A stretch of 36,869 bases of DNA from Chloroflexota bacterium (GTDB lineage: Bacteria > Chloroflexota > Dehalococcoidia > Lucifugimonadales > UBA2985), in assembly GCA_002717805.1 (NCBI GenBank), contig PBBS01000005.1:27904-64772 (forward strand), given 5' to 3'. Made by a program: the position numbers and the translations under genes. Position 1 is the first letter of the stretch. Every line of letters begins with the position of its first letter. The notes under the pieces are model-generated. The model did not search any database. It was not told the DNA's origin and saw only the letters and a list, made by a program, of their open reading frames with translations. This document shows, piece after piece, positions 10,214 to 21,049 of this stretch.

Positions 10214-11611
10214 CTATTCTAGTTCTCTTATAGCACCTGTTACGTCTGCTATAGCTTGGCGTGCATCAGCAAAGAGCATCCTTGTATTTGGGTGATAGAA
10301 CAATTCATTGTCTATACCTGCGAAGCCTGGACTAAGACTTCTCTTTATAAATATAATAGTTCTTGCTTTGTCTACATTTAGTATTGGCATCCCATATATA
10401 GGGCTGTCAGTTGCATCTCGGGCCGCCGGGTTCGTTACATCATTGGCTCCAACTACCACAGCGACATCTGTGTTGTCGAATTCAGAATTTATATCTTCCA
10501 TAGGATATAATTGATCGTAGGGCACTTCGGCTTCTGCTAGCAGAACGTTCATGTGCCCCGGCATTCTTCCAGCAACCGGATGAATAGCGTATCTTACATC
10601 TACACCTTTGGATTGTAATAGATCTGCAAGTTCTTTTGTTTGCCTCTGTGCTTGGGCAGCTGCTAATCCATATCCAGGGACGAATATTACTGACCTAGCA
10701 TATGCAAGTACTATTGCAGCCTCTTCTGAGGTGGTACTTTGGGCGTGCTTTCCTTCTGAACTAGCATGACCCTGTGATGATGTTTCTGCTCCAAACGCTC
10801 CAAATATAACATTCCAAATAGAGCGGTTCATCGCCTTGCACATTAAATTAGTGAGGATTAATCCGGAAGCGCCTACGAGGGATCCAGCTATTATTAGCAT
10901 ATTGTTCCCTAATACAAAGCCAGTTGCCGATGCTGCAAGCCCTGAATATGAGTTCAGTAGTGCAATAACTACAGGCATGTCAGCTCCACCTATTGGGATG
11001 ACTAACAATATACCTAGCAGAAGAGAACATATTATAAGTGCAGGGAAGAGATAAGTCGTACCTGTTTCCAGTACTAGAAGAGTTGATGCACCTATACAAG
11101 ATAAGAATAGTAGTAGGTTGAGAGCTTTTATTAGTATGGAATTAATTGCATTTGAAGGCACAAGGAATGATTGCAGTTTTCCAAAAGCTATAAGGCTTCC
11201 AGATAATGTGACTGCTCCTATGAATGTACCTAGCATGATGGTAATAGATACATCTGGATCGATACTGCCGGGTAGGTTTCGTATCCTATTATATTCTGCG
11301 ATTGCGACTAATGCAGAGGCTCCACCACCAAGGCCATTGAATATAGCGACCAATTGAGGCATAGCTGTCATCTGTATTCTTTTGGCTAGCAATATTCCTA
11401 CTAAACCTCCTAGAACAATGCCAGCTATTATGCCTTGATACTCTACTACTTCTTGATTAACGAGAGTTGCCACTACAGCGATTAGCATACCGATTGATCC
11501 CAGTTGATTCCCAGATCTCGCAGTTGCTGGGGAACCTAGCCTTTTCAAGCCAAATATGAAGAATACAGCCGATAGTAGGTAAGACAGATTAATCGCTTGA
11601 TCTTGACTCAT
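10214..11611 (-). CDS. pntB: NAD(P) transhydrogenase subunit beta PntB
   Basis: Membrane and NADP(H)-binding subunit of the proton-translocating transhydrogenase, which makes NADPH from NADH using the proton gradient. The 465-residue protein has about nine hydrophobic helices (domain II) in the first 270 residues. A soluble domain III follows with VPGYGLAAAQAQ, HPVAGRMPGHMNVLLAEA, VVVGANDVTNPAA and the late IFIKRSLSPGFAGIDNELF motif. Its start overlaps the end of the preceding pnt subunit by 4 bases (ATGA), so the subunits are translationally coupled. Confidence 0.96.
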   Translation of the reverse strand: MSQDQAINLSYLLSAVFFIFGLKRLGSPATARSGNQLGSIGMLIAVVATLVNQEVVEYQGIIAGIVLGGLVGILLAKRIQMTAMPQLVAIFNGLGGGASALVAIAEYNRIRNLPGSIDPDVSITIMLGTFIGAVTLSGSLIAFGKLQSFLVPSNAINSILIKALNLLLFLSCIGASTLLVLETGTTYLFPALIICSLLLGILLVIPIGGADMPVVIALLNSYSGLAASATGFVLGNNMLIIAGSLVGASGLILTNLMCKAMNRSIWNVIFGAFGAETSSQGHASSEGKHAQSTTSEEAAIVLAYARSVIFVPGYGLAAAQAQRQTKELADLLQSKGVDVRYAIHPVAGRMPGHMNVLLAEAEVPYDQLYPMEDINSEFDNTDVAVVVGANDVTNPAARDATDSPIYGMPILNVDKARTIIFIKRSLSPGFAGIDNELFYHPNTRMLFADARQAIADVTGAIRELE

Positions 11612-11907
11612 TGATTATTATCTCCAGTTCTTTTCTTGAACATTTGGAGCATTCTATCTGTAACTAGGAAACCACCGACAACGTTTACTGTGGCAATAGC
11701 GACTGCTACGATGCCGAGATATGTGCTTATATCTGGGTTGTCAGTTTTACCTGCTATTAGCAAGGCTCCAATGACGGCTATACCTGATACAGCATTGGAA
11801 CCAGACATAAGAGGTGTGTGAAGGATAGGAGGTACTTTGCTAATCACCTCAAAACCGACCAGCACTGCTAACACAAATATATATAGAGATATTATTAGAC
11901 CTTCCAT
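11608..11907 (-). CDS. pntAB: NAD(P) transhydrogenase subunit alpha, membrane part (PntAB)
   Basis: A 99-residue membrane protein corresponding to the C-terminal transmembrane helices of E. coli PntA. Sequence features are the LIISLYIFVLAVLVGFEVI helix, the conserved HTPLMSGSNAVSGI segment and a terminal VVGGFLVTDRMLQMF. It is encoded separately from the NAD-binding part, the three-gene arrangement known from Rhodospirillum and many other bacteria. It overlaps pntB by 4 bases and follows the soluble alpha gene by 32 bases. Confidence 0.94.
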   Translation of the reverse strand: MEGLIISLYIFVLAVLVGFEVISKVPPILHTPLMSGSNAVSGIAVIGALLIAGKTDNPDISTYLGIVAVAIATVNVVGGFLVTDRMLQMFKKRTGDNNQ

Positions 11908-11939
11908 ACTATTATGCCCTCAAAAACTTCCATGTTTCA

Positions 11940-13085
11940 TCATATTAGAGATTTGGTTGCTTCATTTACAACACTACCTTGATAAGTTATACAACATCCT
12001 TTAGATATTGCATCATTGAAATCTAGAGACAATATATTGTCGGCTAAAACATGCGCAAGTAATGCAGATATATTCTTAGAATACATTTGACTGGCATGAT
12101 TTGGCATGGTACTCGGGAGATTTAATCTACCGTATATAGTTATATCTTGTATTATGACTTCTTCTCCAGGAACAGTTAATTCACAATTGCCACCAGTTTC
12201 AGCAGCTATGTCAATTATTATGGATCCAGGCTTCATGCTTCTTACCATATCTTCAGTTATTAGTATAGGGGCTGGTCTTCCTGGAATCATCGCAGTCGAT
12301 ATCACAAAATCAGCTTCAGAAGAGTGTTTTTGTATAAGTCTTCTACCTGCCTCCTGAGTGTCCTCTTGGAGTTCTTTGGCATAGCCTCCAGAATCTTGTA
12401 CATCTGCCCCATCTGGGGTCATGCCAACAAATATACCGCCTAGGCTTTCCACTTCTTCTTTAACTGTTGGTCTGACATCAAATGCCTGCATCACAGCTCC
12501 AAGTCTGCGCCCTGTGGCAATAGCTTGCAGGCCTGCTACGCCTGCACCTAGTACTAAGCCTTTAGCTGGCGGATATGTTCCAGCCGCAGTCATCATCATA
12601 GGTAGATATCTGCCTAATCTGTCAGCTGCGATCAGGATAGATTTATATCCAGCAATAGAGCTCTGTGAAGATAGGGCGTCCATGCTCTGTGCTCGAGCAA
12701 TTCTGGGGATGGTATCCATACTCAGAGCAGTGATATTCTTCTGGAGTAGTTTTTTAACAAGTTCAACATTGGTCATTGGTTGTAGGAGACCTATTACTGT
12801 GCTTCCCTCACTCATCATATTGACCTCGTTTTGGCCGGTTGTACTGTCAATTATTGGAGCCTGGACTTTTAAGTACAGTTCTGTTGATCTGTATAGCGTC
12901 TCCGGATCCTCTACTTTGGTAGCTCCAGCTGCAGCATACATGTCATCAGTGAATAGTGATGCTGATCCAGCCCCAGACTCTACGATTACTTCGATACCCT
13001 GATCGACTAGCTTTTTAACGGCATCGGGCACTAGGGAGACCCTACGCTCGCCAGGTAATATTTCCTTTGGTATTCCTATTTTCAT
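11940..13085 (-). CDS. pntAA: NAD(P) transhydrogenase subunit alpha, NAD-binding part (PntAA)
   Basis: Soluble domain I of the transhydrogenase, binding NAD(H) at the cytoplasmic face; 381 residues. It begins MKIGIPKEILPGERRVSLVPD, as in the alanine dehydrogenase/PntA family. It has the Rossmann segment VLGAGVAGLQAIATGRRLGA and AFDVRPTVKEEVESLGG, followed by TAMIPGRPAPILI. First gene of the pntAA-pntAB-pntB operon. The leader upstream contains a promoter at 13169-13197 and an inverted repeat at 13109-13149. Confidence 0.95.
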   Translation of the reverse strand: MKIGIPKEILPGERRVSLVPDAVKKLVDQGIEVIVESGAGSASLFTDDMYAAAGATKVEDPETLYRSTELYLKVQAPIIDSTTGQNEVNMMSEGSTVIGLLQPMTNVELVKKLLQKNITALSMDTIPRIARAQSMDALSSQSSIAGYKSILIAADRLGRYLPMMMTAAGTYPPAKGLVLGAGVAGLQAIATGRRLGAVMQAFDVRPTVKEEVESLGGIFVGMTPDGADVQDSGGYAKELQEDTQEAGRRLIQKHSSEADFVISTAMIPGRPAPILITEDMVRSMKPGSIIIDIAAETGGNCELTVPGEEVIIQDITIYGRLNLPSTMPNHASQMYSKNISALLAHVLADNILSLDFNDAISKGCCITYQGSVVNEATKSLI

Positions 13086-13225: not shown

Positions 13226-14656
13226 TCATATTAGTTCCAATGTCTCTACTTCTCCAATGTCAAGATCTATGATTCTGATAGCGTGATTGTTTGTATCGGC
13301 AATGTATATCTTGTTATTTATAGCCGTTAATCCACTTGGCTCATAGAATGAGGAATGGCTATTCAATCCGTCGAGAAGCCTCGGCTTACCATCGCCAGCC
13401 AACGTAGAAACCTCCACTTTATCAAGGGATAGAACCTTAATTTTATTATTGTAAGTATCTGCTACATATATATTCCCCTTGTATATTTCTATACCCATGG
13501 GATGTTGCAGTTTAGCCTCAGTACCAATGGCGTCTAGGTCACCATATTCGAAAAGTCCGGTTCCAATTAGTGTGTGTACCTTCTGGTCTCCATTAAGATT
13601 CAGGCTTCTTACGGAGCTCGTCTCGCTGTCTACAAAATATATGTGGCCCCGGTTGACATCCAATCCACTAGGTTGTGCTAGGCAGGCAGTTTTAGGATCA
13701 CCGTCTAGTAATCCTTCATTTCCTGAACCTGCCAGAGCCAAGATGTTATTGTCCAATATATTCATATCCCATATTTGATGAACTCCTGCCATTGCTATAT
13801 AAAGTATTCCATCTTCATATGCTAAATCCCACGGAGATGTTTGGCTATTTTTTGAATACCACATGGTGGATACTTGTTTGGTTTTCAGATCAATCTTTCT
13901 TATAGCGTGATTGCCGGTATCAGCAACGAATAATACATTTTTATGATTGGCGATACCTTGAGGGTTGTTGAACAGGGCTTCATTTATATCTCCATCCAAG
14001 AACCCGGATCGCTTCATACCTATCTGATCTGTTATTTTTCCTTCTAGTGATGTAACTAATATACGATTGTTGTTTGAGTCTGCAATAAACAGCCTCTGCG
14101 ATATACTATCTGAAGTAATGTTGCCTGGAAAACATAAATTCTCGCATGCATGTTCTGATATTTTGGTGTCATAAGTATTTGATATCTGGCGTTCTATCAA
14201 TTTGTTATCTGGAAAATGTGAAGAAACCTCCAATATCTTTTGTTCGAGTTCTTCGAAGCTGATTTCTCCTTCTATATAACTATGTGTACTACCCTCTGCG
14301 TCAATAATTAGCGTGGTAGGCCATGCCTTTATGCCGTAGTATTTCCATATTTCGTGATTATTATCATTTATCACTGGGTAATTTATTCTATAGCGTTGAG
14401 TAGCTTGGATGACGTTGTTGGTGAAAGATTCCGCGAGAAACTTAGCAGAGTGGATGCCGATTATGTGGAATCCATCACTATATTTTTCTTGTAGCTTCCG
14501 CAACTGCGGAAGTATATGCATGCAATTTACTCAACAGTAAGTCCAGAAATGCAGGACCAATATCTTAGATGTCATGTCTATAGGTGCTAATTGGTCGTCT
14601 ATGTTTATCCAGTCTAATGTTGATGAGAGATATAGAGGATTGGCCTTATTATCCAT
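13226..14656 (-). CDS. Candidate selenoprotein: thioredoxin-like domain plus NHL-repeat propeller (NHLRC2-type), in-frame TGA read as Sec42
   Basis: The frame downstream of 14521 encodes 431 residues, but the protein clearly begins earlier. From the ATG at 14656 the same frame runs 41 codons to a single TGA (14531-14533) and then on to the stop at 13226, 476 residues in all. Around the TGA the reading is FWTYC-TGA-VNCMHILPQL, matching the CCxxC redox motif of NHLRC2-type thioredoxin-like proteins with the second Cys replaced by Sec (C41-U42-V-N-C45). Residues 15-150 form the thioredoxin-like domain (FHIIGIHSAKF, then KAWPTTLIIDAEG with the cis-Pro). Residues 165-476 hold NHL repeats such as FVADTGNHAIRKIDL and IYVADTYNNKIKVLSL. 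A SECIS-like hairpin follows the TGA. Known members are predicted redox proteins of unclear substrate. Alternatives are a pseudogene or a sequencing error at this codon. No selA, selB, selC or selD gene is in the window. Confidence 0.75.
14495..14512 (-). promoter_or_regulatory. SECIS-like hairpin downstream of the in-frame TGA
   Basis: In the mRNA (minus strand) CUUCCGC, loop AGUU, GCGGAAG forms a perfect 7-bp stem beginning 16 bases after the TGA at 14531-14533, so the apical loop is 23 bases from the TGA. Bacterial SECIS elements are described as stem-loops with the loop about 16-37 bases from UGA and a G among the first two loop bases; both hold here. The hairpin lies in coding sequence (codons for L-P-Q-L-R-K). 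Confidence 0.7.
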
Positions 14657-19384: not shown

Positions 19385-19413
19385 TTCGTCTACAAAGAGG
19401 TTATCGAATTGTT

Positions 19414-19507
19414 TAAGGGGAGCTTGCGTCTATGCAGGCTGAGAGGCTCCGCAACAAATGGAGCGACCCTAGTTAACCTGATCTGGGTAATGCCAGCGGA
19501 GGTAGTA
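19414..19507 (+). ncRNA. TPP riboswitch (THI element)
   Basis: The thi-box core is plain. It opens AAGGGGAGCTTGCG, followed by GCAGGCTGAGAGG with the CTGAGA pyrimidine-sensing motif. Then comes GACCCTAGTTAACCTGATCTGG, and finally GGTAATGCCAGCGGAGGTAGT carrying the pyrophosphate helix. It sits directly before a terminator hairpin and a transporter-thiD operon. It should switch these genes off when thiamine pyrophosphate is abundant. Confidence 0.95.
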
Positions 19508-19525
19508 TCTTATGATGACATCCTT

Positions 19526-19597: not shown

Positions 19598-21049
19598 ATG
19601 GGCGTTATAGTGTTGATTCTTGGCATATCGGCAGGCTTCGGTGTATTGGGTTATTGGTACTCTAGGAACTCTATTGGCAATGTACAGGAATATATAGTCG
19701 TCAGAAATAGTATAGGCTCTGGTTTATCTATTGCTACATTCGTGGCCACTGGCATCGGGGCATGGATATTGTTTGCCCCTACAGAAACAGCCATAAATTT
19801 TGGATTAGTTGCTCTAATTGGATATGCTATTGGGGGGGCCAGTCCGCTCATTGCTTTTTGGTTCTTGGGTCCTAGGCTAAGGTATCTAATGCCTAATGGT
19901 AATACACTTGCAGAATATGTCAGTAAGAGATTTGGAGGCAAGGCAAAGGTTCTAATCCTTGCTGTTATGGTATTTTATATGTTTGTATTCTTGACTGCAG
20001 AATTGACAGCGGTTGGTCAGACAGTCAGACTAATTGCTCCAGACATAAGTATGATTCTTATCGTTTCGATAGTCGGTTTGGTTACTACTGCATACACTAG
20101 TTATGGCGGGTTAAGAGCTTCAATATTCACAGATGGAATCCAATTCTTAATCATATTGCCATTGTTAATCGTATTGTTTTTAGCAACTGTATATGCTCTG
20201 GGCGGTCCTTCGGATATTATAAATGAAGTTCGAGTAAATGCACCGGATAAACTTGACCTAGGGAATACTACTGGTATTGCCACTGCTGTTTCTCTAATAA
20301 TAGCAGTACTAGCGGCTAACCTTTTTCATCAAGGATACTGGCAGAGAATATTCTCTGCAGTTGATGATGAGAGCTTGAAGAAATCTTTGACGATTTCCTC
20401 AATAATTGTGATACCTATAGTATTGATTGCAGGGTCATTTGGTTTGATAGCTCTGAGTGATACTGAAGCCTTTGCCGGTATTCCAGCTATCGCTATGTTC
20501 GAAATAGTTGGGAGCGAATTACCAGACTTAGTTGGTATATTGATCATACTCCTCGTGATTGCATTGGTAATGAGTAGCATGGACACTTTGTTAAATGGTA
20601 TAGCATCTTTATTAATATACGAGATATCTGATATGAGCAGATCTGCTCAAGTGTTGACGACCTCAAGAACAATAACATTCTTGTTACTGATTCCAGCTAT
20701 AATCATAGCATCTAGGGAATTTAGCGTTTTATACATGTTCTTCATAGCGGATTTGGTTGCAGCAGGTTTCATATATCCAGTATTCCGAGGTATGTATTCA
20801 AAGTTGACCAAAGGATGGATGGTTATATCCTCAGGTTTCTTGGGAATATTAGTAAGTCTGATATTTTTCCCCAAATCAGATTGGTCAGGGGTAGTATTGC
20901 AGGTATCGAGTCTTAACACCTCACCAAGCCTTATGAATAGTTTCTTGTCATGTTTGTTAATATCTGTATGCACCATTTTGGTATTGGAGTATATTGGTAA
21001 GCGTTATTCCACAAGTGCAGACTATGACTTTGAAGATTTGAGAGAATAG
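19598..21049 (+). CDS. Sodium:solute symporter under TPP control, probable thiamine-precursor transporter (ThiV-like)
   Basis: A 483-residue SSS-family (PutP-like) membrane protein with about 13 hydrophobic helices. Conserved segments are GLSIATFVATGIGAW, an early LAEYVSKRFGGKAK loop typical of the family, TAYTSYGGLRASIFTDGIQF and HQGYWQRIFSA. CGGAG precedes the ATG by about 8 bases. The gene lies behind a TPP riboswitch and 12 bases before thiD, so the substrate is probably thiamine or its pyrimidine part (HMP), not proline or glucose. The SAR11 gene thiV, also an SSS protein behind a TPP riboswitch, is the closest described arrangement. Substrate is inference from context. Confidence 0.88.
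   Translation: MGVIVLILGISAGFGVLGYWYSRNSIGNVQEYIVVRNSIGSGLSIATFVATGIGAWILFAPTETAINFGLVALIGYAIGGASPLIAFWFLGPRLRYLMPNGNTLAEYVSKRFGGKAKVLILAVMVFYMFVFLTAELTAVGQTVRLIAPDISMILIVSIVGLVTTAYTSYGGLRASIFTDGIQFLIILPLLIVLFLATVYALGGPSDIINEVRVNAPDKLDLGNTTGIATAVSLIIAVLAANLFHQGYWQRIFSAVDDESLKKSLTISSIIVIPIVLIAGSFGLIALSDTEAFAGIPAIAMFEIVGSELPDLVGILIILLVIALVMSSMDTLLNGIASLLIYEISDMSRSAQVLTTSRTITFLLLIPAIIIASREFSVLYMFFIADLVAAGFIYPVFRGMYSKLTKGWMVISSGFLGILVSLIFFPKSDWSGVVLQVSSLNTSPSLMNSFLSCLLISVCTILVLEYIGKRYSTSADYDFEDLRE

Follow-up and report, generated by a model that had tools for sequence, protein, structure and literature searches.

The question raised by this locus is whether a TGA within an otherwise open frame ends translation or encodes selenocysteine (Sec, U). 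The window, i.e. the whole stretch of DNA that was analysed, comprises 36,869 nt from a Chloroflexota genome, and the gene lies on its (-) strand at 13226..14656. Read with TGA as U, 14656..13226 (-) gives 476 residues with a single internal TGA, at codon 42 (14531..14533), along with a terminal TGA (13228..13226), which confirms the original prediction of a 476-codon frame broken by exactly one TGA. It was also predicted that automated annotation would start the gene at 14521 and lose the redox centre, and the conventional ORF list does contain only 14521..13226, a frame of 431 aa beginning at Met46 (14519..14521), directly past C41-U42-V43-N44-C45 (14522..14536). Residue 46 is not conserved (M, L, V, A, H or I in relatives), and on this basis we regard the Met46 codon as a false start for standard gene callers.

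Across the TGA the translation aligns unbroken with Arabidopsis SOQ1 (7djj, E 7e-102) and with human NHLRC2 (6gc1, E 5e-86). The homology starts at residue 11-13 and continues ungapped through the TGA, in line with the claim that codons 1-41 are needed. Codon 42 falls, as predicted, on the second Cys of the CCINC centre, corresponding to human NHLRC2 Cys-90 (6gc1 chain position 97 less 7, the offset being inferred from the chain length), and by the same inferred offset in 6gc1 numbering D98 matches human Asp-148, the site of the mutation in FINCA disease. A thioredoxin-like (Trx-like) domain spans residues ~12-145 (14222..14623; Thioredoxin_8 E 8e-18), and an NHL beta-propeller spans residues ~172-474 (13235..14143; NHL E 1e-27), both delimited with the aid of the alignment and an AlphaFold2 (AF2) model, the propeller also by Foldseek. 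On the same protein the Redoxin profile scores 35 bits vs 65 bits for Thioredoxin_8. The AF2 model reached a pLDDT of 88.3 and a pTM of 0.88, and a Foldseek search with it returned 7djk as best match (TMq 0.94), with 6gc1 at TMq 0.91-0.92. Profiles, alignment, model and Foldseek agree on the NHLRC2/SOQ1 architecture of a Trx-like domain followed by a six-bladed NHL propeller, and the designation as an NHLRC2-type thioredoxin/NHL protein is upheld.

With human NHLRC2 (6gc1) and the lumenal domains of Arabidopsis SOQ1 (7djj/7djk) the bacterial protein thus shares both domains, a CC[IV]NC centre at the domain interface and a WP cis-Pro motif, at 36-42% identity in the structural alignments and TMq of 0.91-0.94 for the two-domain chains. 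It differs from them in lacking the C-terminal beta domain, the HAD part and the membrane part, no signal peptide being seen, and in carrying a predicted Sec for the second Cys (human Cys-90). The CC(I/V)NC motif characteristic of the family (PMC6107167) is hence found here as C-Sec-V-N-C.

In an alignment of 24 sequences N44 and C45 are invariant and column 42 is either Sec or Cys, while W16, L35, F37, W38 and T39, all upstream of the UGA, are also invariant. Cys homologues at column 42, which were to be looked for as a check, were found (e.g. L010, L023 and L171); Trp was never seen there. The predicted C-U-x-N-C motif is present in the window gene, but as a description of the redox pair it held only in part. 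Position 41 is Ala in two members (L207, L224) and Gly in two others (L191, G090), all four with TGA at codon 42, and Gly is also found in the Cys-type members L205 and L206. Since C41 is replaced in some Sec members, the redox pair would be Sec42-x-x-Cys45 and not a C-U pair; judged from these sequences, the core chemistry can do without C41, which is not needed everywhere.

The TGA is kept well beyond the window. Within the same order there are 17 other full-length relatives at 41-47% identity, of which 15 have TGA at the column and 2 have a Cys codon, and the full-length related genes that keep the TGA show no further disruption; further frameshifts were among the things to be checked in related genomes. 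Altogether TGA stands at the codon-42 column in ~150 retrieved relatives, mostly Chloroflexota, with other phyla including Rokubacteria, NC10/Methylomirabilota and Acidobacteria; an in-frame UGA at a Cys column, kept in several species, is what is expected of a bacterial selenoprotein. An exact scan of GTDB genomes for W-T-[YF]-C-TGA-[IV]-N-C gave at least 118 genuine and 2 chance matches among the matches listed, with further titles from SAR202, Dehalococcoidia, Thermomicrobia, Anaerolineae, Rubrobacter, Armatimonadetes, Planctomycetota and Bacillota MAGs. Two TGA-form records are not labelled MAG, namely Thermomicrobium sp. CFH 73360 (L105) and Thermosporothrix hazakensis ATCC BAA-1881 (L130). 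Of 400 Chloroflexota genomes taken as an even sample, 85 have the family and 58 an in-frame TGA, which a pattern search confirmed at the motif in 56. The pattern WT[YF]x-TGA-[IV]NC occurred in 67 of these 400 genomes, with some Trx-only paralogues among the genes counted, vs 0 for the reversed control pattern. As the TGA is kept across relatives and the control gave no match, chance, error and decay are excluded as its source. We rejected L073 and L087 as chance matches to the TGA motif, and likewise L161, the sole match in viral contigs; a plasmid search gave no close relative of the gene.

The strongest single piece of evidence for the selenoprotein reading is a hairpin that the original prediction did not mention. 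Just past UGA42, at 14495..14512 (-), lies CUUCCGC-AGUU-GCGGAAG, a stem of 7 bp with its loop at 14505..14502. The rules for bacterial SECIS elements call for a loop of 3-9 nt, a stem of 4-16 bp, a G in the first two loop positions, a spacing of 16-37 nt and an MFE <= -7.5 (PMC13188914). With a loop of 4 nt (AGUU) having G second, 7 bp, a UGA-to-loop distance of 25 nt and -11.5 kcal/mol, the hairpin agrees with every one of them. An Rfam scan of the SECIS region matched none of the SECIS families and gave just a weak osmY hit under the gathering score, and the hairpin was therefore tested by recoding and covariation instead.

Against synonymous recoding of its own protein stretch the native fold of the window gene had p 0.004, and the mean z against such recoding was -2.02 in 128 distinct Sec genes vs -0.05 in 10 Cys genes. 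Taken singly, the window hairpin reached only z -1.95 against dinucleotide shuffles, and for some single genes the p-value fell short of significance, the stem being favoured by the protein sequence itself. Stem positions are paired in 92% of cases in Sec genes and in 56% in Cys genes, compared with 34-66% for shifted partners. At pair 22-39, 51 genes have U-A and 49 have C-G (Fisher 1e-17), and the second base falls on a synonymous position of a Lys codon in most. The AGUU loop is kept in 117/128 Sec genes, and the loop is spanned by a Leu codon that reads TTG in 123/128, while TTG makes up 10% of the Leu codons of the same genes. Divergent members keep the stem in other sequence, e.g. GUCGACG/CGUCGAC in L050. 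Judged by these comparisons the hairpin is absent from the Cys forms, and the sequence data show UGA42 to be under selection together with a downstream SECIS hairpin within the coding sequence.

The source genome (1.32 Mb in 25 contigs, 87% complete) was to be searched for selA, selB, selC and selD. It has a tRNA-Sec with anticodon tca (UCA) at C10:66875-66968, a selA scoring 516.8 bits and a selD scoring 356 bits (G000:C4:53630-54550, L166), whose frame contains a TGA at the established Sec site KCAG-U-AAK. This selD (KCAG-TGA-AAK) is itself a selenoprotein gene. Only selB is incomplete, found as a fragment of 229 bits against a cut-off of 242, the score falling short because contig C2 ends within the frame. 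Sec genomes of the same order have SelB (truncated in the source genome, G000), whereas the Cys-type genomes G034 and G045 have no SelB over the cut-off. In the even sample SelA was detected in 57 of 58 Sec-type genomes vs 323 of 400 overall, an association (p = 6e-5) that is indicative only as the genomes are related; the sole Sec-type genome without SelA (G390) is 77% complete. SelA is also common in Cys-type genomes (20/23), hence the machinery does not predict the Sec form, and only the reverse holds. Together with the conserved TGA and the SECIS hairpin, the machinery supports the predicted Sec-containing product.

Three other readings of the TGA were weighed against this evidence. The window gene is a single divergent gene of MAG type on a long branch, and TGA is one base from TGY, so that a sequencing error, or mutation of a Cys codon as the gene decays, might be suspected. 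The frame is otherwise intact, the hairpin is conserved and the same TGA stands in the ~150 other genes, including the two not labelled MAG; for the family as a whole the sequences refute this explanation, and we consider it extremely improbable. That UGA42 is a real stop, with a functional product starting at Met46 and the upstream part a leader or remnant, would fit the ATG directly after it at 14521, which is the gene callers' choice. However, many relatives have no Met at residue 46, the upstream residues listed above are invariant, and in the AF2 model the Trx fold would be cut after its first strands, which makes a real stop equally hard to credit.

The remaining possibility is that UGA is decoded otherwise, as Trp by a variant code or as Cys by a misacylated tRNA-Sec. 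Both UGA recoding and the insertion of Cys through the Sec machinery are known elsewhere. Here, TGA ends ~10 of the 34 ORFs of the window as well as the gene itself, so it is no general sense codon; tRNA-Sec, SelA, SelD and SelB are present, and the column is Cys in homologues and never Trp. We therefore consider decoding as Trp or Cys very unlikely.

With high confidence, we read the gene from its sequence as encoding a cytosolic selenoprotein of NHLRC2/SOQ1 architecture, with hairpin-directed Sec at UGA42, Sec42 as nucleophile and Cys45 as resolving residue. By the established bacterial mechanism, SelB and Sec-tRNA(Sec) would bind the hairpin and insert Sec at UGA42, while the terminal UGA, without a hairpin, would stop translation. 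In NHLRC2 the CCINC motif is placed at the N-terminal end of helix alpha1 and faces the propeller cup (PMC6107167). From the fold, Sec42 would likewise occupy the N-terminal end of helix alpha1 in the Trx domain, where CxxC has its nucleophile, and face the NHL propeller cup; it may attack an oxidised client or ligand bound in the cleft between Trx domain and propeller. Cys45 would then resolve to a selenenylsulfide, which would be re-reduced. Human NHLRC2 does not reduce insulin (PMC6107167), hence a role as generic disulfide reductase is uncertain. The chemistry of CCINC in NHLRC2/SOQ1 is unsettled, and the predicted Sec exactly at the second Cys indicates a redox nucleophile and not a structural residue.

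Bacterial selenoproteins of the UxxC type (Trx, Prx-like, Redoxin PF08534 and thiol-disulfide isomerase-like cd02966) have in common with this protein the Trx fold, Sec for the N-terminal Cys of CxxC and a SECIS just downstream of the UGA, but not the fused NHL propeller with its conserved cleft. The DipZ C-terminal domain and short SCINC or GCINC Trx proteins share the Trx domain with x-C-I-N-C in the same place, and some Chloroflexota paralogues also have a TGA (WT[YF]G-TGA-INC); they differ in having no propeller, in being apparently secreted or lipoprotein-like, and as a separate subfamily. Six short Trx-only proteins from Chloroflexota (L208-L212 and L037; genomes G379, G398, G447, G144, G437 and G025) have an N-terminal extension and WT[FY]G-TGA-INC, with a hairpin-like repeat, e.g. 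ATTCCTTCGTTGAAGGAAT, past the TGA. They probably constitute a second family of Sec proteins, akin to DipZ/TlpA-like Trx domains.

In a phylogeny built from 107 Sec proteins and 10 Cys proteins the well-supported branches force at least five Sec/Cys changes, hence conversion happened repeatedly. The window protein has a long branch (1.52) and its exact place is therefore unsure. Four genomes of the same family lack a full-length copy, and with the long branch this marks the window gene as one divergent copy.

A 2026 inventory comprises 119 prokaryotic selenoprotein families, and no NHL, NHLRC2 or SOQ1 entry is among them (PMC13188914). A selenoprotein of this kind is likewise absent from a 2022 review, the deep-Sep paper and the GOS and Sargasso papers, and a search of the main texts of open-licence papers for NHLRC2 or NHL repeat paired with selenocysteine or selenoprotein gave nothing relevant. 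The Redoxin UxxC (PF08534) or generic Trx-like groups may include fragments of this family, and a generic 'redoxin' entry may conceal the family itself. We think it probable that these proteins form a new, widespread Sec-NHLRC2/SOQ1 family in Chloroflexota and other phyla, in which the position of Sec identifies the catalytic nucleophile; they are best regarded as a selenoprotein variant, not described before, within a known protein family. In mice NHLRC2 is essential, mutations of the human protein are found in FINCA disease, and qH, a form of photoprotection in plants, is under the control of SOQ1. Ordinary annotation would truncate this widespread selenoprotein family at Met46; the family probably accounts for some of the selenium use in Chloroflexota, including the dark-ocean SAR202.

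The window gene is followed on its own strand, after 140 nt, by a pyridine-nucleotide transhydrogenase-like gene, a neighbour not conserved among relatives. Transhydrogenase-like genes occupy 10214-13085 (-) of the window, the first with AlaDh/PNT domains and the next two recognised by inspection of the translated ORFs. The relatives' loci, searched for a conserved operon, showed no universal neighbour and hence we claim no partner; for NHLRC2-type genes no operon was found earlier either (PMC6107167). A DUF255/YyaL gene (PF03190 Thioredox_DsbH) follows the Sec gene on its strand in 21 of ~129 loci (among them L011, L018, L043, L046, L063, L067, L074 and L147), directly adjoining in most, and this thioredoxin-like protein is a possible functional partner. 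In 9 other loci a TENA-family gene lies upstream of the Sec gene, and the window itself has a TPP riboswitch (RF00059, 55.9 bits) at 19406-19521 (+), upstream of an ORF at 19598.
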